The notes under the pieces: model-generated
Seen by the model: only the letters and a program-made list of their open reading frames with translations
The model's database searches: none
Told to the model about the DNA's origin: nothing
Assembly (NCBI GenBank): GCA_017505725.1
Contig: JAFVOR010000084.1
Span: 1-62,978 of the forward strand
From: Alistipes sp.
GTDB taxonomy: Bacteria > Bacteroidota > Bacteroidia > Bacteroidales > Rikenellaceae
Length of the DNA: 62,978 nucleotides
Direction of reading: 5' to 3'
Part shown: positions 5,064-62,559 of the stretch, piece by piece
Layout of the letters: the number at the start of each line of letters is the position of its first letter
Numbering within the stretch: the stretch's first letter is position 1
Program-made: the position numbers and the translations under genes

Positions 5064-5163
5064 CGTCATTGCGAGAGCCGTTAGGCTCGTGGCAATCTCC
5101 TACTTTTAATTTTAATAACAATAATGGAGATTCCCACAGTAGCTCCGCTCCTTCGGAATGACG
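5064..5163 (+). mobile_element. 100-bp MITE-like element, copy 1
   Basis: The ends are inverted: CGTCATTGCGAG at 5064 and GGAATGACG at 5155-5163. Each arm holds its own small hairpin (GAGCC-GTTA-GGCTC in the left arm) and finishes in GGCAATCTCC or its complement. The 25-nt AT-rich centre between the arms is the reverse complement of the centre of the copy at 60208-60307, which is also 100 bp long, so the two copies are inverted relative to each other. There is no coding capacity. It would need a transposase in trans, and none is in the window. It ends 67 nt before the promoter of a structured RNA. Confidence 0.75.
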
Positions 5164-5230
5164 ATTTGATTTATCTTCCGCAAAATTAAAAATTTTTGCC
5201 CACAATACCGCAACTATCAAATATTATTTC

Positions 5231-5238
5231 TAAATTTG
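5231..5238 (+). promoter_or_regulatory. -7 element of structured RNA copy A
   Basis: TAAATTTG matches TAnnTTTG and is followed at once by the conserved RNA 5' end (GTAGCGCAGTCC). No convincing TTTG is visible at the -33 position, unlike copies B and C. Confidence 0.6.
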
Positions 5239-5481
5239 TAGCGCAGTCCTCGGATTGCAGACATATTTTGATGAAAGTGTATTAGCTTTTATCCTTGAAT
5301 GGAAATCTGGAAAATTTCAAATGACCAAGGAGAGCAACGCACTCGTCACCGTGTATTGGTGTAAATGGCACTTTCGTTGCCCTATACCTACCAATACGGG
5401 TGTGGGGTATTGTTTATTTGGTCATAGGTATTCCAGAACCTCCATTCAGATAAACTAATCGGCCTCACACTTTCTTTTTAT
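5239..5481 (+). ncRNA. Rod-shaped structured RNA or leader, copy A
   Basis: A transcript of about 240 nt is predicted from the -7 element to a U-tract. It starts with a small hairpin (GCAGTCC / GGATTGC). A long rod follows: 5273-5280 with 5467-5474, 5296-5303 with 5441-5448, 5306-5312 with 5431-5437, 5321-5328 with 5418-5425, 5353-5360 with 5390-5397. Blocks identical to copy C are GGATTGCAGACATATT (5252-5267), GGTATTGTTTATTTG (5406-5420) and GCCTCACACTTTCTTTTT (5462-5479). The rod helices themselves differ in sequence between copies yet still pair, which indicates a selected structure. The terminal helix plus T-run looks like an intrinsic terminator. The next gene starts 46 nt later. Function unknown: 6S-like RNA or cis-acting leader. 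Confidence 0.75.
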
Positions 5482-5526
5482 ACAATCCGCACATTCGTGG
5501 CTGGTGCGCAAAAAGAGAAAATAAAA

Positions 5527-5964
5527 ATGGAAATATTGATAAGTAACACGATATATTCTTACATCTGTAAGGATATGGATTATTATTTTGCAGAAGATAT
5601 CAAGGTCGGTAATTGGGAAATACATCGAACAGTTAAAAACGGATACAAAGTAAAAAGCAATTACAAATGGGAGGCTGATTCCAATTTAGTATTCTCAATC
5701 ACCGACAAAAATGGCACAACTAAAAATAAGGTTTGGTTTTATTTTAGAAATGACTACGGGCTTCCTGTTGTTAAAAACGACGAAGATAATATCAATCGCA
5801 TTAAAAGATTTATAGAAAATTCTATTCTTTTTAAATGTGAGACATGGGATGACTATGAGAGTACAGCCTTTGTTCTTGGTGTAAAGAACATTATTGATGA
5901 AGTAGGAGATAATCTATCTAAAAGAAATCGTATAGAATATTTCGTAAAACACCCAATATACTAG
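5527..5964 (+). CDS. Hypothetical protein of an AT-rich islet
   Basis: 145 residues, soluble, no signal peptide or membrane segment, no family that I recognise. It is rich in Lys, Asn, Asp and aromatic residues and visibly more AT-rich than the core genes around it, consistent with acquisition. The ATG at 5527 is preferred over the GTG at 5497. It lies 46 nt downstream of the structured RNA at 5239-5481 and 5 nt upstream of the zinc-ribbon gene at 5970, so it is likely co-transcribed with it. Confidence 0.65.
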   Translation: MEILISNTIYSYICKDMDYYFAEDIKVGNWEIHRTVKNGYKVKSNYKWEADSNLVFSITDKNGTTKNKVWFYFRNDYGLPVVKNDEDNINRIKRFIENSILFKCETWDDYESTAFVLGVKNIIDEVGDNLSKRNRIEYFVKHPIY

Positions 5965-5969
5965 TAGAT

Positions 5970-7682
5970 ATGGTAGACAAAATAAAACAATGGTTGGAAA
6001 GTAACAATTTTGATGGTTTCGACAATCAATGGTACGGTTTTGTATCTCAGCTCATTCATAGCAGGCAAATCTTGTTTATGCGAAAAGTAGTAGAGGCGCA
6101 TCGCTTGGGCTTTGCCTCTATCACCATACCTCAACTATCAACCATTGTTAGCAATCGCAATAACTTAGAGATAGATGTATATATATTAACCCAATGTCTG
6201 CTATCTGTTTTAGAAAACAAGCGCCTTCCTTATGTTTGGGAAATATATAATACCATTCGTAATATATACGAGGCGTACAAGGTTGATGAATTTGAGATCC
6301 TATTCAATAAATTTGCGAATAGCCCACTGTTTGATACATGCACAGGATTTACTCATATAAAAAAGAAACCAGATGATATCAATGTCTACGGTAATATACC
6401 AATTGCCACACTTAAAATAAATGAAGATAAATCATGCGAATTGACATACAACGAGAACATAGAATATGTAAGATTTAGCATTTCTGTCGCTCGGCTAAAA
6501 TGCATCTCAGGAAGAAAATACAATCCCGATACAAAAATGTGGTCAATACCTGCATCTTCAATAGATGAAGTGGTAGATTTCTTGAGAAATTCTGTGATAG
6601 GGCGAAAATATAAAGAACAACATCTAATAGAGATAGAATATTTATACCATAAATACGCTCAAACAGGAGTGGAACAACCTTTTACTGCGTTAATGTGTTA
6701 TAGCGAAAGTTTCAACGAAGGCAGAAAGGATGAGATTCATTTTTGTGAGGGTAAAAAATGGATGTATCCACATTTTGGTCACTGCTTTTGGTGTGGAGGT
6801 TCAAGTGTTTTCTGTAAAGGATTGCACGCTCATGACAATTACACCGAGTATACATTATATGATATGTTGAAAATTATCAACAATGGTGACGACTGTCTAT
6901 TACAACAATCTTATAGTGGATACAATAGGCTTAAAAGATTAGTATCTCGCAAGCATTTACAATGTAAATCCTGCAATATGATGATAGAGCCAATAAAAGA
7001 TAAATCGAACAACGGTTACAATGCTCGCAGGGTTGTATATTTTCATTGCTCTAATATAGGCTGTGCAAATAAAGAAAAGATATATTTAACTCATTGTTTT
7101 CAAGAATCATGCGGAGGAATCATTGATAGTCGTGAAACTCAACGATGTTCTAACGGCTTCTATATATGCAAAAAATGCGGAGTATGCTGTGCCGAATCCC
7201 AATTTCAGCGCAAAATCGACTCAGATATACCATTAGGAGATTACATTTCGGGATTAATAAAGCAGCATAAGATGCATCTTGATAGTGGAGAGCCAAAGTT
7301 CTTCTGTCCTACATGTAGACATGCCCTTGAGTATGTCACATTGGATGATCCGCTTACAATAGTTAGTCATGATGGAAAAACAGTTATTGATGGATATCAT
7401 CGATGCCCTAATCATAAAGAGTACTTCGGTGTGTTCCCTAGGGATTATTCAAATCAATGCAAAAATGATTTTTTAGCAAAATTTATATGTCCGATATGTG
7501 GAGCATCACTTGAACAAAAAAAGATTACAGATCCATCAAATAAGAAGGTTATAAAATATCAGCAATGTAAGGAGCATGTAGACCATTATGGCATTTTCCC
7601 GAAAAGTCCAATGAATAAAAATGATAACGAACGGTTAAAAGAATTGAAAAAACGCACGGTACACGAAGTCGAATATTGGTAA
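5970..7682 (+). CDS. Multi-zinc-ribbon protein with a HARP-like segment, function unknown
   Basis: 570 residues, no signal peptide. Residues 168-207 contain ISGRKYNPDTKMWSIP, which resembles the HARP-like or helicase-associated motif (aggRwnpexkxWxvp) found next to SNF2-type and other DNA-processing enzymes. The second half is packed with metal-binding pairs: C272/C275, C332/C335, C360/C365, C400/C403/C406, then two tandem ribbons of the form CxxC-(about 30)-CxxH (C446, C449, C479, H482 and C507, C510, C533, H536), each ending in a FGVFP/YGIFP motif. No helicase, nuclease or ATPase motif is visible. The protein probably binds nucleic acid or protein. Composition is AT-rich like its partner at 5527. 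A role in defence or mobile-element biology is conceivable but unsupported. Confidence 0.65.
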   Translation: MVDKIKQWLESNNFDGFDNQWYGFVSQLIHSRQILFMRKVVEAHRLGFASITIPQLSTIVSNRNNLEIDVYILTQCLLSVLENKRLPYVWEIYNTIRNIYEAYKVDEFEILFNKFANSPLFDTCTGFTHIKKKPDDINVYGNIPIATLKINEDKSCELTYNENIEYVRFSISVARLKCISGRKYNPDTKMWSIPASSIDEVVDFLRNSVIGRKYKEQHLIEIEYLYHKYAQTGVEQPFTALMCYSESFNEGRKDEIHFCEGKKWMYPHFGHCFWCGGSSVFCKGLHAHDNYTEYTLYDMLKIINNGDDCLLQQSYSGYNRLKRLVSRKHLQCKSCNMMIEPIKDKSNNGYNARRVVYFHCSNIGCANKEKIYLTHCFQESCGGIIDSRETQRCSNGFYICKKCGVCCAESQFQRKIDSDIPLGDYISGLIKQHKMHLDSGEPKFFCPTCRHALEYVTLDDPLTIVSHDGKTVIDGYHRCPNHKEYFGVFPRDYSNQCKNDFLAKFICPICGASLEQKKITDPSNKKVIKYQQCKEHVDHYGIFPKSPMNKNDNERLKELKKRTVHEVEYW

Positions 7683-29395: not shown

Positions 29396-29597
29396 TAATC
29401 GAATTGCGGAATACGCAATTTCTATAGATGGCATTTAGGCTATTGTTTTGTTGATAAAACGACCAATTTTATTTAGCGAACAAACAATAGGCACAATAAA
29501 TGCCCTCGCCGTTTTGGCGTGGGTTGTGCTTTTGTTCGCGTGGGTACTTGGTCGTCCCTTTCAACTAAAAGTATATATCCACGCTTCTTCTTTTTAG
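29396..29597 (+). ncRNA. Structured leader RNA, copy B (divergent), with mutually exclusive folds
   Basis: After a small 5' hairpin (ATTGCG...CGCAAT) a rod can form: 29459-29466 with 29548-29555 (ACGACCAA/TTGGTCGT, comparable to ATGACCAA/TTGGTCAT in copy A), 29476-29484 with 29531-29539, 29491-29496 with 29524-29529, apical 29507-29510 with 29516-29519. A competing fold pairs 29430-29437 with 29497-29504 and 29440-29448 with 29482-29490. Near the 3' end, 29538-29546 can pair with 29576-29584, followed by TTCTTCTTTTT, an intrinsic terminator. The 3'-strand block GCGTGGG..TTGTGCTTTTGT aligns with the conserved block of copies A, C and D. The coding start is 63 nt further on. Confidence 0.65.
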
Positions 29598-29659
29598 TTA
29601 AGCGGTTGCTATCTGATACGCAACGATATTTATGTTTAACTAACAAAATTCAAATTATT

Positions 29660-30208
29660 ATGAAGAAGATTTTTTTAATTGTAATGATGCTTGTATTTGC
29701 GATTACAGCAAATGCGCAAACCGATGTCATAAAGTTTTTAGGTATTCCAGTTGATGGAACGAAGGCAGAGATGATTGCAAAACTTAAAGAGAAGGGATTT
29801 TGTCAATCGTATGGGATGGGGGCAGATGTTCTCGAAGGAACATTTAATGGAGTAGAGGTGTATGTTGCACCTGTTATGAATGGTAATAAAGTGCGAAGAG
29901 TTGCAGTGATGTATAAAAATCCGCTTGATGAAATACAGATTAAGTTGCATTTTAATAGATTGGTTGATCAATTTAGTAATAATGGCAAATATCAAGCAAT
30001 TTCTGAAGCTCAGAAAATCCCAGAAAATGAGAGAATCTCTCATCAAATGACAATTTATAAAAAACAATATGAAGCAGGATTCGTTCAATTACCATATAAT
30101 TCTAATAAAATAGTTACAGTACTGATAAGTGAACAAAGGTATGATAAATATCATATTTTGATATTTTATGATAATGGGTACAATACAGCCAATGGAGAGG
30201 ATTTATAA
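29660..30208 (+). CDS. Hypothetical secreted protein
   Basis: 182 residues from the ATG at 29660. Signal peptide MKKIFLIVMMLVFAITANAQ. The mature part (FLGIPVDGTKAEMIAKLKEKGF...) resembles small periplasmic proteins of Bacteroidota that start with a helix able to recognise a GIPVDGTK motif, but I cannot name the family. It is AT-rich, unlike the neighbouring core genes. The upstream in-frame ATG/GTG codons are inside the leader RNA and are rejected. A terminator at 30222 ends the transcript, so it forms a single-gene unit with leader RNA B. Confidence 0.75.
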   Translation: MKKIFLIVMMLVFAITANAQTDVIKFLGIPVDGTKAEMIAKLKEKGFCQSYGMGADVLEGTFNGVEVYVAPVMNGNKVRRVAVMYKNPLDEIQIKLHFNRLVDQFSNNGKYQAISEAQKIPENERISHQMTIYKKQYEAGFVQLPYNSNKIVTVLISEQRYDKYHILIFYDNGYNTANGEDL

Positions 30209-36574: not shown

Positions 36575-39500
36575 TTAAAATTTGTTCTTGTTAAACTTTG
36601 GTTTGTCGCCCATTAACTTAGGCTCACGCTGGTCGCGCTGCGAAGAAGCCTTCACGCCCTCGCCATCCCAAGCACGAGTGGAGAGAGTAGATGCGGTCGA
36701 TGTCAGCGACTCGTAATCCTTCGCTTTGAATGCCTCGTAAGAGTACTCTTCACCCGCATACTTCATAATACGCTTAACCATTGCCTCGCGCGAAATGGCG
36801 TTGTAGTAGGCAATATTGTTGTTCATACACGAAGTTGCCTCCGAACGGAACACACCGCGAGTGTGCATAAATGCTCCCTCATATACATCAACTACATTCG
36901 AGAACTGTGGATCGTAAATCATATGCGACCAAGGCACCTCCTGCATACTTCCCGTAAGCGAGATATTCTCATAGAAACCGTAAGACTTCATCGCATTAAT
37001 CTCCTTAACATGACCACAGCAGATGCAAGAGCACGACTGAATAAATGCGTTGTGGTAGATATACTCGTCTGCCAACTTGCCGAAGCCGTGACCACCAGCC
37101 TCGTGGTGTACCAAGCCCTGGAAGTCGTATGGTGCAGGATCGTTGCTCATAGGCACAAGTGCCACTGCCGAGCCATCGCCCCACATATAGCACAAACCGC
37201 TATACTCGTAACTATTCTCAACGAGGATTACAAGCGTAGTAGCCACATTGTCGTTGATAGGAGCAACGCACGCACCTGCAAATACAGTCTCGAAGTCAGG
37301 CGATACACCCTCATTCAAGGTATATTGTGAGCCGAAGCGAGCCTCACGAATAGTATTGACCGTACCCATACCGCTATCGGCTGACATACCGAATACGGTA
37401 TAGACATTGAAGTAGTCCTTGTAGGTCACATAAGGCTCAATATCGAAGAAGTATGTATAGGCATCCTTCATTGCTTGGAGATACTTGCCCTCTGCAATAT
37501 CCTTTGCATCGAAGCAGTCACCCATAATCACAATGTTCACACCATTGCCCACACCCTTGGTCTGATGAGTGTAGAGGTCGCCATCACCATACTCGTAGTC
37601 GTACTGCTCGACGGTCATCTTTGTGCGATAGTCCTTACCATCAAGCAAGAATACCACCTCGCCACCACGACCTGCGTGGGTGCTCTCGATAACTGTACCG
37701 TTGGAATTAACCGTACCAGTCTTGAATGTACCAACATCGCCAGCTGCCATCTCGTTTACGGTAATTGTTACATCGACCTTACCTACGCCGCTTGAAGGGG
37801 TAACGGTTACCCACTCTGGCGCAGACTCAACCGACCACGCCTCGCCTGCCGGAGCACGCATCACAAAGGTCTTAGAGTGCTCGTTGTTGAGTGCACGGAG
37901 CAGGTTGCGCGAGATTGAGAACTCACGGTGAGCCGCAAAACGCTTGAACTCACTCCAACCCGATGCAAACTGATATTTCTTAATAGACTCCTCAGGCACC
38001 TCAATAGTAAAGTTGTCTTTTGCTACGCCATTGAAAGAGTTAGATGCAATAGTAGGAGCATTCTTTGCCTTGCTGACAATCGAAGAGACATAGTAACAGT
38101 TTGCAAATGCCTGCGACTCAATAACCTCTACATCCTTATGGAGCACGATGCCCTCGATATTCTTACAACCATAGAACAAACTCGATGGGATAGCCACAAT
38201 ATTTTCTGGAATCTCAACAACTCCACTCAATCGCCAACAGCCGTTAAATACAGACGAGCCAAGCGAGATAAGTTCCTCAGGAAGAACGAGTGTACCGTTG
38301 AACTCTGTCTTTGCAAATGCGCTACCTCCAATTGTGGTAACAGTTGAAGGGATATTCAACTCGCCCTTGAACTTTGTTTCGCTAAATGCGCTTGACCGAA
38401 TCTCTGTCAAACCCATAGGCAAGGTAAGGTTTCCAGTGAAACCGCAAGACGAGAATGATGATGAGTTGATGGTATGCACACCACTCGGAATGGTCAAAGA
38501 GCCTGTTAGAGCATTACAATCATAGAATGCAGATACTCCGATATGCTCCAAAGTCTCTGGTAATGCGAGGTTTCCCTTGATTGCAGATGTACTAAATGCG
38601 TGTTCGTCAATTCTTTTTAGCGAGTGAGGCAATGAAATCTCGCACATCAACGATTTACAATTGGCAAATGCACTTGAACCAATCTCCTCCAAAGTTGATG
38701 GAAATTGTACATTGGTAATTTTTGTATCCTGGAAACCACTGACATATTTCAAACCCTCTGGCAACTGAACTGTACCAGTGAGTGAAGTATATGAGAATGC
38801 ACTGTACTCAATGCGCTCCAACTTGTCAGGAAGCACGCACTTGATAAGGGTCTTTTTATTTTTAAATGCATCTTTAGGTATCTGATACACGCCATCAATC
38901 TTACTCTCTACCTCTTTGAGGTTAAGACGCATCAAAGAGGTCATCTTATCTCGCATAAATGTATAGTCGGCAGCACCAATCTCTCCCGTGAGTTTCAAGT
39001 TCTTAATAGCCGTGACATCCATCTCAAGGCGATCAACCATAGTCTTCTCCAAGCGACCAGCCTCAGGCGAGTGAACTACAACATACTCACGAGCATTGTC
39101 CTGGTGTGAAGCGTTGTCTGCCTCCCAAGCGGTGATGCTCACGCCCACCAACTCAACCTCGTACTCGCCCGTAGCAGCAGACTTCTTCACACTCAAATCG
39201 AAGTTGGTAATCTTACCCGGCAGGTACTCGGTAGCCTCGGCACGAATGTAGTGGCGTGGGCGACCGTCGATAGTGAGCACCAAGACACTCTTGCCTGCCT
39301 CAACTGTCTGCGGAACAACGATAGCACGGAAGTCGCCACCATCCTCGACAGGAATAATGCCGTCGAGAGGCACATCGCCCACAGGGGTAACCACGCCCGT
39401 AGCGAGGTTGATGGTCGATTTGCGGATAGTGTTGGTAACCAAGACATCCTTTTTTACGGCTGCGAACTCCGCCTCGCTCTCCCAGCCTTCGCCCTGGATA

Positions 39501-40060
39501 AAGCGTACACGAGCCGACGACATCTTGTGGTTAAATTTCAGTTTAATCTTCGACTCGGTAGGGGTTACGCCCTGAACATTCGCCCAAAGGAAGTCCGAGG
39601 CCTCGTAAGCCGCCATCTTGCCGTGCTCGGCAGGGGTGCGCTGATCCTTCGCAACCTCGAAAGCATACTCCTCGATAGAGGTTGGTGTGGCATAAGGATA
39701 GTAGCCGTAGAAATCGACCTTTGTGTCGTTGTCCTTGTAGTAGATGTCATACTCCGACACCCACGAGCCATCTTCGCCCAATGTGAACTTCACATTGTCC
39801 GCTTGATTATCCTCGACCAAGAGGTTTCCTGGCTGTTCACCCTCGTAGTTTACGAGGTAGATACCTACTGCATCGCCTGCGCAGAAGCCACTGTCATCGA
39901 CACGGGTGTCATCGTGCTGGTCGATGTTGTTTTCAATTTGCACCTTGTGCAAACCTTCGACATCGGGATTTGGTGTCTGCAAATCGATATCGGGAGCAAC
40001 GCAACCCGTCATCGCAAGCAGTGTCGCCATTACCGAAAAGTTGAGTAACTTTTTCATCAT
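36575..40060 (-). CDS. Multidomain lipoprotein: fimbrillin-like + BspA LRR + BACON + M64 metallopeptidase
   Basis: 1161 residues. A lipobox (MTGCVA) anchors it. Residues about 40-320 look fimbrillin-like (DAVGIYLVNYEGE, FYGYYPYATP, SDFLWANVQGV, LKFNHKMSSARV). Residues about 350-680 carry LRR_5 repeats (PSTLEEIGSSAFANC and relatives), diverged from those of the two BspA genes. Residues about 700-790 fit a BACON domain (WSVESAPEWVTVTPSSGVG). The last 350 residues are a peptidase M64 domain, with zinc motif HHEAGGHGFGKLADEY (HExxHxxGxxxD). M64 enzymes include an IgA-cleaving peptidase. A role in cutting host or bacterial surface glycoproteins is inferred. It is second in an operon that begins with leader RNA D and a 40-aa peptide. 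Confidence 0.88.
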   Translation of the reverse strand: MMKKLLNFSVMATLLAMTGCVAPDIDLQTPNPDVEGLHKVQIENNIDQHDDTRVDDSGFCAGDAVGIYLVNYEGEQPGNLLVEDNQADNVKFTLGEDGSWVSEYDIYYKDNDTKVDFYGYYPYATPTSIEEYAFEVAKDQRTPAEHGKMAAYEASDFLWANVQGVTPTESKIKLKFNHKMSSARVRFIQGEGWESEAEFAAVKKDVLVTNTIRKSTINLATGVVTPVGDVPLDGIIPVEDGGDFRAIVVPQTVEAGKSVLVLTIDGRPRHYIRAEATEYLPGKITNFDLSVKKSAATGEYEVELVGVSITAWEADNASHQDNAREYVVVHSPEAGRLEKTMVDRLEMDVTAIKNLKLTGEIGAADYTFMRDKMTSLMRLNLKEVESKIDGVYQIPKDAFKNKKTLIKCVLPDKLERIEYSAFSYTSLTGTVQLPEGLKYVSGFQDTKITNVQFPSTLEEIGSSAFANCKSLMCEISLPHSLKRIDEHAFSTSAIKGNLALPETLEHIGVSAFYDCNALTGSLTIPSGVHTINSSSFSSCGFTGNLTLPMGLTEIRSSAFSETKFKGELNIPSTVTTIGGSAFAKTEFNGTLVLPEELISLGSSVFNGCWRLSGVVEIPENIVAIPSSLFYGCKNIEGIVLHKDVEVIESQAFANCYYVSSIVSKAKNAPTIASNSFNGVAKDNFTIEVPEESIKKYQFASGWSEFKRFAAHREFSISRNLLRALNNEHSKTFVMRAPAGEAWSVESAPEWVTVTPSSGVGKVDVTITVNEMAAGDVGTFKTGTVNSNGTVIESTHAGRGGEVVFLLDGKDYRTKMTVEQYDYEYGDGDLYTHQTKGVGNGVNIVIMGDCFDAKDIAEGKYLQAMKDAYTYFFDIEPYVTYKDYFNVYTVFGMSADSGMGTVNTIREARFGSQYTLNEGVSPDFETVFAGACVAPINDNVATTLVILVENSYEYSGLCYMWGDGSAVALVPMSNDPAPYDFQGLVHHEAGGHGFGKLADEYIYHNAFIQSCSCICCGHVKEINAMKSYGFYENISLTGSMQEVPWSHMIYDPQFSNVVDVYEGAFMHTRGVFRSEATSCMNNNIAYYNAISREAMVKRIMKYAGEEYSYEAFKAKDYESLTSTASTLSTRAWDGEGVKASSQRDQREPKLMGDKPKFNKNKF

Positions 40061-40084: not shown

Positions 40085-40207
40085 TTAAATTTCTCCTTCA
40101 ACATTTTCGCCGTTGCCCCAATCAACGATGGGGGTTGATAACGAAAATCCCCGCTCGCAGGCAACGAGACATTGCTGCAAGTCAGGTGAAATGTAAGTTT
40201 GTTTCAT
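40085..40207 (-). CDS. Small 40-residue peptide upstream of the M64 gene
   Basis: MKQTYISPDLQQCLVACERG starts a 40-residue reading frame that ends 24 nt before the M64 gene. The MKxxYxxP start, central hydrophobic/Cys segment and acidic Gly/Asn-rich end (DWGNGENVEGEI) match a common, poorly characterised class of Bacteroidales small proteins found ahead of surface genes. An alternative ATG lies at 40213. The frame continues upstream, but that part lies in the leader RNA. Real expression is inferred from position and sequence type. Confidence 0.65.
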   Translation of the reverse strand: MKQTYISPDLQQCLVACERGFSLSTPIVDWGNGENVEGEI

Positions 40208-40274
40208 AAGCATATATATTTCGAGTTTATATTCTTGCCCAAAATTATCCGCACCTCGATAGTGGTATGTTAAT

Positions 40275-40480
40275 TGTTTGCACAAATAGAAAGCGTGGTG
40301 CTGAAAACTTATTTTAAGATTACAGGTTGTAGGATGACCTCGACAATAAAATAAGCAACAGCCCCACGCCATACCAGAGGGTATGACGCAGGAAGATGTC
40401 CGCTCATTCTCTTGTCTAATCGAACTTCCTACATTCGTAATCTGAGAATAAACTTACACTTTCCGCGTAATATGTTGCTA
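40275..40480 (-). ncRNA. Rod-shaped structured leader RNA, copy D
   Basis: On the minus strand the order is -7 element, an ACATATT block, then GGAAAGTGT, as in copies A and C. Helices in plus-strand positions: 40456-40463 with 40289-40296 (GAAAGTGT/ACGCTTTC, one G-U pair where A and C have G-C/A-U), 40437-40443 with 40317-40323, 40427-40433 with 40328-40334, 40412-40416 with 40342-40346, apical 40370-40375 with 40380-40385. The conserved 3'-strand block reads GCGTGGGGCTGTTGCTTATTTT on that strand in two parts (GCGTGGGG, then TGTTGCTTATTTT). The 3' end (CGCTTTCTATTTG) has a weaker U-run than A and C. It ends about 65 nt before the small peptide gene. Confidence 0.65.
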
Positions 40481-60207: not shown

Positions 60208-60307
60208 CGTCATTGCGAAGGAGCAAAGCGACTGCGGCAATCTCCATTATTGTTATTAAAATTAAAAGCGGGAGATTGCCACGAGCCTATCGGCTCTCGC
60301 AATGACG
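60208..60307 (-). mobile_element. 100-bp MITE-like element, copy 2 (inverted relative to copy 1)
   Basis: The ends are CGTCATTGCG at 60208 and CTCGCAATGACG at 60296-60307. Internal GGCAATCTCC (60236-60245) and GGGAGATTGCC (60270-60280) flank the centre, which is the reverse complement of the centre of the copy at 5064. It begins after TTAGCTTTTAGCCATTGGCC-type DNA that is also related to the copy 1 flank, and ends 14 nt before the -33 box of RNA copy C. Confidence 0.75.
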
Positions 60308-60321
60308 ATTTGTTTTGATTT

Positions 60322-60353
60322 TTTGCACTTTTCAGAAAAAGTTTCTATTTTTG
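60322..60353 (+). promoter_or_regulatory. Consensus promoter of structured RNA copy C
   Basis: TTTG (60322-60325), 20-nt spacer, TATTTTTG (60346-60353): exact match to the TTTG-N19-21-TAnnTTTG consensus. Confidence 0.85.
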
Positions 60354-60588
60354 TAACGCAGTCCGCTGGATTGCAGACATATTATTAGTGAAAGTGTTTC
60401 GCTAACCTTGACGATAAAATTTGGCGATTTTACAAAGAGCAAGGATAAGCAACAGCACTCTACACCGCATTTGGTATATCATTTTCTACATATACCATTC
60501 GGTGTGAGGTATTGTTTATTTGCTCTTGGGCCACGCCAAATGCCTATCGTCGGATAAACGAACTGCCTCACACTTTCTTTTTTTATAG
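60354..60588 (+). ncRNA. Rod-shaped structured RNA or leader, copy C
   Basis: About 235 nt between a consensus promoter and a run of T's. Helices: 60390-60397 with 60570-60577, 60410-60416 with 60545-60551, 60419-60426 with 60534-60541, 60435-60442 with 60520-60527, ATAAGCAA 60445-60452 with TTGTTTAT 60512-60519 (one G-U), 60463-60467 with 60500-60504, apical 60473-60478 with 60491-60496. Identical blocks with copy A are given there. The terminal helix plus TTTCTTTTTTT acts as an intrinsic terminator. The BspA gene starts about 70 nt later. Confidence 0.78.
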
Positions 60589-60660
60589 TAACCCACTATC
60601 GCGAGGCGGATAGTAATTTGAATTAGAGAAACTTATTGTTAAACTAAAAAACAAATTACT

Positions 60661-62559
60661 ATGAAACGATTTTTACTTTCAGCCGTTCTTGCAACGACTT
60701 TGGCATTTACATCGTGTCAATTTGATGACTCCGACATTTGGGATAAGTTCGGAGAGATGGAAGAGTCCATTCGTGACCACGAACAGCGTATCTCTGCCCT
60801 CGAAGAGTTGTGCAAGCAGATGAATACCAACATTGAGGCGTTGCAGACTCTTGTTAATGCGCTCGAAAAGCGTGACTATGTAACCAATGTTTCGGAGGTG
60901 CGTAGCAATGGCGAGGTTATCGGTTACACTATTTCGTTTGGCAAGAGCGATACCATTACAATCTATCACGGAGAAGATGGCAAAGACGGTTATACTCCGC
61001 AGATTGGCGTGATGAAGGACACCGACAATATCTATTATTGGACTCTTGATGGCGAGTGGTTGCTCGACGGAAAGGGAAACAAGATTAAGGCAGTCGGTAC
61101 TGACGGTGCAGATGGTAAGGATGGACAAGACGGAACAAGCGGAACTGATGGCAAAGACGGAGCAGACGGCAAAAATGGCGTAACTCCACAACTCAAAATC
61201 GAGAACGACTATTGGTATGTGTCGTATGACAATGGCGCAACTTGGGTACAACTTGGCAAGGCAACGGGAAATGATGGTGTTAACGGAGAAAATGGCGAAG
61301 ACAGCGACAGCATCTTCAAGAGCGTAACACAAGATGACGAATATGTCTATTTCAACTTGGCAGACGGAACAATGATTACTTTGCCAAAGCACGACAAGGA
61401 GAATATCCAATTTGAGGACTTGCAAGCAAAGGCAATCTGTTGCAAAAAATGGGACACCAACAACGATGGCGAACTCTCCTATGCAGAGGCAGCAGCGGTA
61501 ACAGATATTGGTGATGTGTTTAGTGAGAACAAAAATATCATCGCATTTACTGAGTTAAAGCACTTTACAGGAATTACCAAAATACCAGCAAACGCATTTG
61601 AAGGTTGTACTGCTTTGTGGAAAGTTAAAATTCCTGATAGCGTTACTTCGATTGGAGAGAGTGCATTCGAAGATTGCACCTCGCTGACAAGTGTCACAAT
61701 TCCTGATAGCGTTACTTCGATTGGAGAATATGCATTCTTAGGTTGCACCGCGCTACCTATAATAGATGGCATACGCTATGCTGATACATATTTGGTGGCG
61801 GCCGTGGATGAAACTCGCACATTATACACCATTAAGCCCGGTACTCGATTTATTGGAACTGATGCATTCTCTTATTGCTCCTCTCTGACAAGTGTCACAA
61901 TTCCTGATAGCGTTACTTCGATTGGAACTGATGCATTCAAAGATTGCACCTCTCTGGCAAGTGTCACAATTCCTGACAGCGTTACTTCGATTGGAACTGA
62001 TGCATTCTCTTATTGCACCTCTCTGACAAGTGTCACAATTCCTGATAGCGTCACTTCGATTGGACAGAGCGTATTTTATAGATGTAGTAGTCTAAAAGCC
62101 TTCTATGGAAAGTTTGCTTCTGCGGATAATCGTTGTTTGGTTATCGATGGCGTGCTAAACTCTTTTGCTCCTGCAGGATTAACAGAATATACTATTCCAA
62201 ATGGTATCACTTCAATTGGAGAGTTTGCATTCTATTTTTGCACCTCGCTGACAAGTATTACAATTCCAGATAGCGTCACTTCTATTGGAGTTTGTGCATT
62301 CCGTTTTTGCAGGAGCCTGACAAGTGTAACAATTCCTGATAGCGTTACATGGATTGGAGGTTCTGCATTCGAAGATTGCGCTAGTCTGGAAAGTGTATAT
62401 TGCAAGGCTATAACGCCCCCAACGGCAGGAAATAATACATTTATCTACAACAACGCTTCGGGAAGAAAAATTTATGTGCCACGCAATTCGGTAGAGGCAT
62501 ATAAGACGGCTTCGGGTTGGAACCAGTATGCTTCGTCTATTGTCGGCTACGACTTCTAA
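60661..62559 (+). CDS. BspA-like LRR lipoprotein with coiled-coil and collagen-like stalk
   Basis: 632 residues. Lipobox (AFTSCQ, Cys20). Residues 22-72 look like a coiled coil (EMEESIRDHEQRISALEEL). A DUF4988-like segment (YVTNVSEVRSNGEVIGYTIS) follows. Residues about 105-220 have collagen-like GxD/GKDG triplets (TDGADGKDGQDGTSGTDGKD). DTNNDGELSYAEA (about 268-280) is an EF-hand/dockerin-type calcium loop. From about residue 300 on, LRR_5 repeats of 23 residues dominate, ending with GRKIYVPRNSV...YDF. The layout suggests a surface adhesin with stalk and recognition domain. It lies behind structured RNA C, and its LRR part is nearly identical in DNA to 1-921. Confidence 0.9.
   Translation: MKRFLLSAVLATTLAFTSCQFDDSDIWDKFGEMEESIRDHEQRISALEELCKQMNTNIEALQTLVNALEKRDYVTNVSEVRSNGEVIGYTISFGKSDTITIYHGEDGKDGYTPQIGVMKDTDNIYYWTLDGEWLLDGKGNKIKAVGTDGADGKDGQDGTSGTDGKDGADGKNGVTPQLKIENDYWYVSYDNGATWVQLGKATGNDGVNGENGEDSDSIFKSVTQDDEYVYFNLADGTMITLPKHDKENIQFEDLQAKAICCKKWDTNNDGELSYAEAAAVTDIGDVFSENKNIIAFTELKHFTGITKIPANAFEGCTALWKVKIPDSVTSIGESAFEDCTSLTSVTIPDSVTSIGEYAFLGCTALPIIDGIRYADTYLVAAVDETRTLYTIKPGTRFIGTDAFSYCSSLTSVTIPDSVTSIGTDAFKDCTSLASVTIPDSVTSIGTDAFSYCTSLTSVTIPDSVTSIGQSVFYRCSSLKAFYGKFASADNRCLVIDGVLNSFAPAGLTEYTIPNGITSIGEFAFYFCTSLTSITIPDSVTSIGVCAFRFCRSLTSVTIPDSVTWIGGSAFEDCASLESVYCKAITPPTAGNNTFIYNNASGRKIYVPRNSVEAYKTASGWNQYASSIVGYDF

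Follow-up and report, generated by a model that had tools for sequence, protein, structure and literature searches.

The window analysed here, a stretch of 62,978 nucleotides of Alistipes DNA, contains four copies of a rod-like RNA element, named A to D, each of which lies upstream of an open reading frame in the same direction. Match scores are given for two covariance models, R1, built from 13 copies of the element in this genome, and R2, a broader model built from 94 diverse members. Copy C lies on the plus strand and has as its promoter the Bacteroidota −7 element TAnnTTTG (TATTTTTG, 60346–60353), with a 5′ hairpin, predicted by folding, that begins 4 nt past it (60358–60374). The rod element (60381–60582; 156.6 bits with R1, 131.0 bits with R2) includes the 5′ strand of its closing helix, P1 (GAAAGTGT, 60390–60397), which is shared with a competing hairpin (TTAGTGAA/TTCGCTAA). 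The P1 3′ strand (ACACTTTC) and a U-run form a terminator-like end (60570–60584), directly preceded by a pseudoknot strand, CTGCCTC (60563–60569). The partner of this strand, GAGGCGG (60603–60609), lies in the loop of a downstream hairpin, H2 (60595–60614), for which family-wide swap tests of stem and pseudoknot are given below. The gene that follows (60661–62559) has a lipobox-like start and encodes a lipoprotein-like protein with DUF4988 and BspA-type LRR domains (Pfam LRR_5, 5.3e-73; DUF4988, 2.8e-36).

Copy A, also on the plus strand, has the promoter element TAAATTTG (5231–5238), a rod element at 5264–5479 (192.4 bits with R1, 171.6 bits with R2) and an H2 hairpin at 5489–5509. Its pseudoknot strand ATCGGCC (5458–5464) pairs with GGCTGGT (5499–5505), G-U pairing included, and its gene (5527–5964) encodes a protein of 145 aa with no Pfam family at E ≤ 0.01. 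Copy D, on the minus strand, belongs to a shorter class II (40284–40472; 112.3 bits with R1, 111.8 bits with R2) and uses GCACC/GGTGC in place of the CTCC/GGAG of other copies. The GCACC lies in its pseudoknot strand CAGCACC (40297–40303) and the GGTGC in the loop GGTGCG (40250–40255) of its H2 hairpin (40246–40264). A 42-aa ORF follows on the minus strand (40085–40213), which may encode either a leader peptide or a small protein in its own right, ahead of a fimbrillin/LRR/BACON/M64 gene (36575–40060, 1161 aa). Copy B is a divergent plus-strand element (29418–29592; 30.0 bits with R1 with filters off, 46.9 bits with R2) with a downstream hairpin (29605–29624) in which inspection by eye gave no convincing pseudoknot, and precedes a gene for a secreted-looking protein of 182 aa (29660–30208), for which Pfam gives nothing above the curated cut-off. 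The coordinates, promoter elements, hairpins and start distances in a preliminary description of the four copies hold, the re-measured start codons lying 46–73 nt past the copies as bounded there. By eye, REP-like palindromes (GTCATTGCGA..., GGAGATTGCC...) also occur just 5′ of copies C and A (60210–60310 and 5120–5165).

Fold, copy number and spread of the family

Single-sequence folds of the four copies are more stable than those of shuffled sequences, with z scores of −6.7 (C), −7.0 (A), −5.5 (B) and −5.1 (D), and for each copy none of 200 shuffles was as good. The preliminary description had pointed to a rod helix that differs in sequence between A and C while keeping its pairing, and had taken this to indicate a selected fold. 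The compensatory helix is present (TGAATGGA/TCCATTCA against GACGATA/TATCGTC) and the selected fold is upheld by the wider alignments. Among the 94 sequences, whose alignment leans towards the structure because it was fitted to the model, two-sided changes occur in 37 of 41 pairs (852 two-sided cells compared with 234 after shuffling), and 94.6% of pair cells hold standard pairs, compared with 71.9% when shuffled and 39–56% when the partners are slid. The P1 helix is paired in 98.7% of cells in this alignment. A MAFFT alignment of the 13 copies from the genome itself, which was not fitted to the model but from which its structure was predicted, shows change on both sides of 19 of the 34 predicted pairs. 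In this second alignment mean column identity is 61%, and there are conserved bases in the internal loops of the rod. A candidate second pseudoknot around P4, with a hairpin GAAAT..ATTTC, scored at least 9 in 68 of 92 elements compared with 42.1 in swaps; with this modest support it was dropped as a claim.

Searching the whole genome gave 15 matches with R1 at E ≤ 1.5e-8 and 18 with R2 at E ≤ 1.7e-5, copy B included, so the four copies described at first are right for the window but an undercount for the genome. Judged by their model scores, A, C and D are strong members of one RNA family and B is a divergent member. Copy B was missed by R1 with default filters at E ≤ 10, and even with R2 (genome-wide E 4.5e-6) it is the weakest of the four. 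The reverse strands of four elements score 26–30 bits, and the 27.2 bits obtained with R2 for the reverse strand of copy C are a palindrome artefact.

A covariance-model search of the Bacteroidales, as the preliminary description had advised, was run together with searches at other ranks. The resulting counts do not amount to one rate because the thresholds differ between taxa and the large searches were strictly filtered, with E-values that are rough: R1 matches occur in 94 of the 101 genomes sampled from the genus (E ≤ 0.01; up to at least 22 matches in one genome), in 231 of 268 genomes and 17 of 22 genera of the family Rikenellaceae (E ≤ 0.001) and in 98 of 393 genomes and 62 of 207 genera of the order (E ≤ 1e-6), while R2 matches occur in 32 of 296 genomes and 17 of 140 genera of the phylum (E ≤ 1e-6). 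Carriers outside the Rikenellaceae include Bacteroides xylanisolvens XB1A, B. heparinolyticus DSM 23917 and a Phocaeicola MAG. The rod is approximately 170–230 nt long, about 200 letters overall. Family, fold, pseudoknot covariation, promoter and gene placement are all results of computation, and they describe a real, widespread and apparently undescribed family of cis-leader RNAs whose fold and placement are well supported computationally.

Promoter, gene placement and the start-proximal pseudoknot

The motif TAnnTTTG, which passages of PMC7366714 give as the consensus of the sigma-ABfr −7 element, begins 25–75 nt upstream of 158 of 184 elements, compared with 6.9 expected from shuffles. Among the 165 promoter-bearing elements, 142 have a 5′ hairpin with a folding energy of −4 kcal/mol or below (71 expected from shuffles). 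At the other end, 155 of 186 elements are followed within 220 nt by the start of an ORF of 100 aa or more, compared with 8, 9 and 9 in three shuffles; the median start is 52 nt downstream, and 86 of the 155 start at 40–59 nt. The arrangement is that of an attenuator leader, with a promoter directly 5′ (158/184) and a same-strand gene directly 3′ (155/186). Under a more permissive rule (at least 30 aa) an ORF is called after 179 of 186 elements, also with a median start of 52 nt, which is weak evidence because the same rule fires on 130–144 of 186 shuffled stretches. Seven elements have no called ORF at all; two of these (L187, L195) lie where the contig or the fetched stretch breaks off, and in three a foreign sequence that recurs between loci joins directly onto the P1 strand.

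This foreign sequence, beginning GAACCGA, is common to six of 353 loci, where it replaces the U-run after the P1 3′ strand (L126 near 708, minus strand; L159 at 499; L161 at 484; L229 near 5786, minus strand; L279 near 114, minus strand; L281 at 5875). In L229 the junction is followed by type I restriction genes (HsdR, HsdM) and a YhcG nuclease. The junction may be a mobile-element site in the leader or a different downstream module.

The strand directly 5′ of the P1 3′ strand is complementary to the loop of H2, the hairpin that follows the U-run. The two strands change together across the family, examples being CAACTCC/GGAGTTG, CATCTCC/GGAGATG, CGATACCC/GGGTATCG and CCGGTCC/GGACCGG. A pseudoknot score of at least 18 was reached in cis by 100 of 184 elements, compared with 18.4 when partners were swapped between elements, and a score of at least 16 by 134 of 184 compared with 36.7. 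The pseudoknot is weak in the remainder (84 of 184 below 18 and 50 of 184 below 16), which we count against the leader model favoured below. The H2 stem was examined in the 137 elements whose pseudoknot scored 15 or more, where it scored at least 10 in 109, compared with 46.6 in swaps. For 135 of these 137 elements an ORF was called, and the end of the H2 loop lies most commonly 20–29 nt before the called start codon (65/135), with a second group at 45–54 nt (17/135) and a long tail; in a further 11 the called start precedes the loop end and is probably miscalled. The GGAG of the H2 loop was considered as a Shine-Dalgarno site and rejected by eye, being too far from the start and missing from several class II loops.

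Promoter, 5′ hairpin, rod and U-run together would also make a complete sRNA-like unit, and the foremost alternative is that the terminated rods are multi-copy sRNAs acting in trans, with the downstream genes merely read through and the H2 loop perhaps an sRNA target. Such families exist in Bacteroides: according to passages of PMC11697453, FopS of Bacteroides thetaiotaomicron is a set of paralogous sRNAs, approximately 14 copies per genome, that act in trans, consist of a single-stranded 5′ stretch and a terminator hairpin, and are reported there as deposited in Rfam. FopS is the closest multi-copy RNA in concept, sharing copy number, a Bacteroidota promoter, an intrinsic-terminator end and a link to surface proteins (PMC11697453), but its description differs from that of the present family, a rod of 170–230 nt that forms its pseudoknot in cis and lies ahead of a gene. 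Some matches also lack a close ORF. Among the 11 matches fetched from outside the order, the nearest ORF of at least 70 aa is 179–373 nt away at L345–L347 and L349, and at L350 there is none before 1074 nt; these five rods, each with a U-run, may be an sRNA variant of the family that stands alone. For the family as a whole the sRNA reading is less likely because a gene stands at a preferred distance (an ORF of at least 100 aa after 155 of 186 elements) and the pseudoknot partners match, and covary, in cis. Also against it is L324, where two elements (1665–1501 and 1464–1280, minus strand) lie 36 nt apart in one leader with no TAnnTTTG between them. Overall we regard trans-acting sRNAs as an unlikely account of the family.

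Downstream genes and the terminator-like end

The genes behind the leaders are diverse. Pfam finds 95 families among 132 of the 176 listed downstream proteins, the leading ones being BspA-type LRR_5 (16), LRR_8 (11), DUF4988 (6) and BACON (6). The proteins have no pathway in common, which we count against the leader model favoured below. By a crude rule, and with genes that are not independent of each other, exported-looking products are encoded by 104 of the 131 leader genes with 150 aa or more and by 185 of the 457 neighbouring genes; a lipobox occurs in 54 of the 131 and in 46 of the 457. This agrees with the earlier suggestion of a multi-copy family that often lies 5′ of surface genes.

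The absence of a metabolic theme among these genes bears on whether the rod core could be the aptamer of a small-molecule riboswitch. The conserved internal-loop bases, the pseudoknot and possible second one, and the terminator-like end all resemble riboswitch architecture, as do tandem copies, both in L324 and in L321 (1701–1501 and 1337–1132, minus strand), where the second element has its own TACCTTTG. Against this, no metabolic gene theme appears downstream, and the element exceeds most known aptamers in length and has a more rod-like shape, so that a riboswitch of this kind seems to us quite unlikely.

Directly after P1, 140 of 185 elements have a U-run of at least six T in nine positions (45 have fewer), which together with the near-complete pairing of P1 gives the helix-then-U-run end of an attenuator leader. 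The proportion of T is 0.79–0.96 at five consecutive model positions past P1, in an alignment that favours T because the U-run belongs to the model. The minimum-energy fold includes P1 in 167 of 197 elements. Blocking the P1 3′ strand has a median cost of 4.2 kcal/mol, compared with folds of −66 to −92 for the genome's own copies, and in 126 of the 197 the 5′ strand finds a local partner instead. In some of those own copies (such as L055, L056, L057 and L062) blocking costs 6–7 kcal/mol and there is no local re-pairing. Examples of competing hairpins that take up the P1 5′ strand are GATGAAAG/CTTTTATC, ATTAGTGAA/TTCGCTAAT, ACTTAAAG/CTTTAAGT and ATTTAAAG/CTTTAAAT. The competing hairpin is real in a subset of the family, since 53 of 181 elements score at least 16 compared with 15.4 in swaps; 61 of 181 score below 10. 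The base of P1 is A-U rich, unlike many strong terminators, and we count this against a terminator. Taken together, P1, the U-run and the competing hairpin fit a conditional terminator without proving one. The preliminary description had proposed a cis leader under terminator control, perhaps by a NusG-like antiterminator; the cis leader and its terminator-like end are retained, termination at the U-run being a prediction and a NusG-like link conjectural.

The same data bear on a simpler alternative, in which the element is a constitutive cassette that stabilises the mRNA or enhances its translation, P1 does not terminate and the U-run is a linker or a third pseudoknot strand. A 5′ hairpin near the expected end of the transcript, the favoured spacing between H2 and the start codon and the diversity of the downstream genes would suit such a cassette. 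It is opposed by the high T content past P1, and it is disfavoured, and a switch indicated, because the competing hairpin covaries in a subset of elements. We therefore find a constitutive cassette distinctly improbable.

Relation to known RNAs and a proposed model for the leader

A mobile, MITE-like palindrome that carries the promoter by chance would be multi-copy, would score on its reverse strand as four elements do and could turn up in bacteria of other families, such as Bacteroides xylanisolvens, as this element does, but is scarcely credible for copies of one genome that average 61% column identity, keep their pairing by compensatory changes and recur in the order promoter, rod, H2, gene. 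A class I query gave no match in plasmids. It did match MT838511.1 (L335), an 'UNVERIFIED Bacteriophage' record that carries the leader; this is probably bacterial DNA, because the ORFs beside the element resemble those of Bacteroides xylanisolvens XB1A, having the same lengths (164, 283 and 223 aa) and, in the first, the same start sequence. Seven predicted viral contigs have a pattern match, one of them with a full element: L336 (IMGVR_UViG_2802429514_000001) carries a class I element at 7109–7311 (183.8 bits), followed by a 732-aa ORF. A Vibrio phage match of copy D was dropped (16% query coverage, E 6e-3), and the C83 BLAST match proved on inspection of the sequence to be due to chance.

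Over the elements scanned (in the window, at copy C and at 15 further loci) no Rfam 15 family exceeded its cut-off. At gathering scores the window has three matches, an SRP RNA and two tRNAs, all away from the elements. Relaxing the threshold to E ≤ 10 for copy C gave just two microRNA families, far below their cut-offs, and no 6S, and neither 6S nor any other family matched the 15 further loci at E ≤ 1. For FopS this holds only as far as the Rfam copy used contains a model of it. The RF01685 model had no match in the genome itself, in a search whose control was likewise without a match. 6S RNA is rod-like; the preliminary description argued against a plain 6S RNA, and this is borne out by the lack of an Rfam 6S match in the scanned loci, the 18 genome copies and the ORF of at least 100 aa after 155 of 186 elements. 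Both 6S (6S-Flavo, RF01685) and Bacteroidales-1 (RF01693) are likewise structured Bacteroidota RNAs, but the leader family differs from them in having no Rfam match, many copies per genome and genes at a preferred distance.

Attenuating leaders and riboswitches with intrinsic terminators are a known kind of RNA, and they share with this family the promoter, the structured leader, the terminator-like helix with its U-run, the competing hairpin (here in a subset) and tandem copies. The family differs in having no metabolic gene theme and in the additional pseudoknot between its terminator-like end and a start-proximal hairpin after the U-run. A survey of candidate structured RNAs mined from human microbiomes covers the same kind of genomes (PMC8040213), and fragments of the present family may be among its unnamed candidates; in main-text passages its Alistipes example is a 49-bp L20 leader and no multi-copy rod leader appears. 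Searches of largely open-access papers, and main-text passages of several, gave no such leader family; an unnamed earlier listing is possible. To the preliminary description the analysis adds the downstream hairpin with its covarying pseudoknot, the competing hairpin at P1, the actual number of copies and the spread across the phylum.

On balance we think it slightly more likely than not that each copy is a cis-acting 5′ leader, comprising a conditional terminator and then a start-proximal pseudoknot in the read-through mRNA, that is switched by a common signal; termination, switching and signal are the parts of this model that we infer. Transcription would start at the TAnnTTTG promoter, and the 5′ end of the transcript would fold into the small hairpin. 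The next 170–230 nt would form the long rod, with P1, directly before the U-run, acting as the conditional terminator. Early in transcription the P1 5′ strand could, in part of the family, be held in the local hairpin, favouring read-through. In the read-through mRNA the strand beside P1 would pair with the H2 loop, most commonly 20–29 nt before the start codon, and a pseudoknot so close to the start may tune translation or mRNA stability. A common signal, either a ligand or a protein, would act on the conserved internal loops, so that many surface and accessory genes could be switched together. More tentatively, the family may be a Bacteroidota-wide class of signal-sensing leaders, with approximately 20 copies per genome at most, that switches unrelated surface and accessory genes and combines a conditional terminator with a pseudoknot, formed only on read-through, that docks a hairpin just upstream of the initiating ribosome.

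To our knowledge few regulatory RNAs have been described in the Bacteroidota, a phylum that includes many gut commensals, and an Rfam entry for the leader family would annotate many genomes at once. Bacteroidota largely do without Shine-Dalgarno pairing, and a covarying pseudoknot close to their start codons gives a means of studying how their ribosomes choose start sites. With a leader common to BspA-type, BACON-domain, fimbrillin-like and other surface proteins, it would be possible to test directly whether the cell surface is controlled in a coordinated way.
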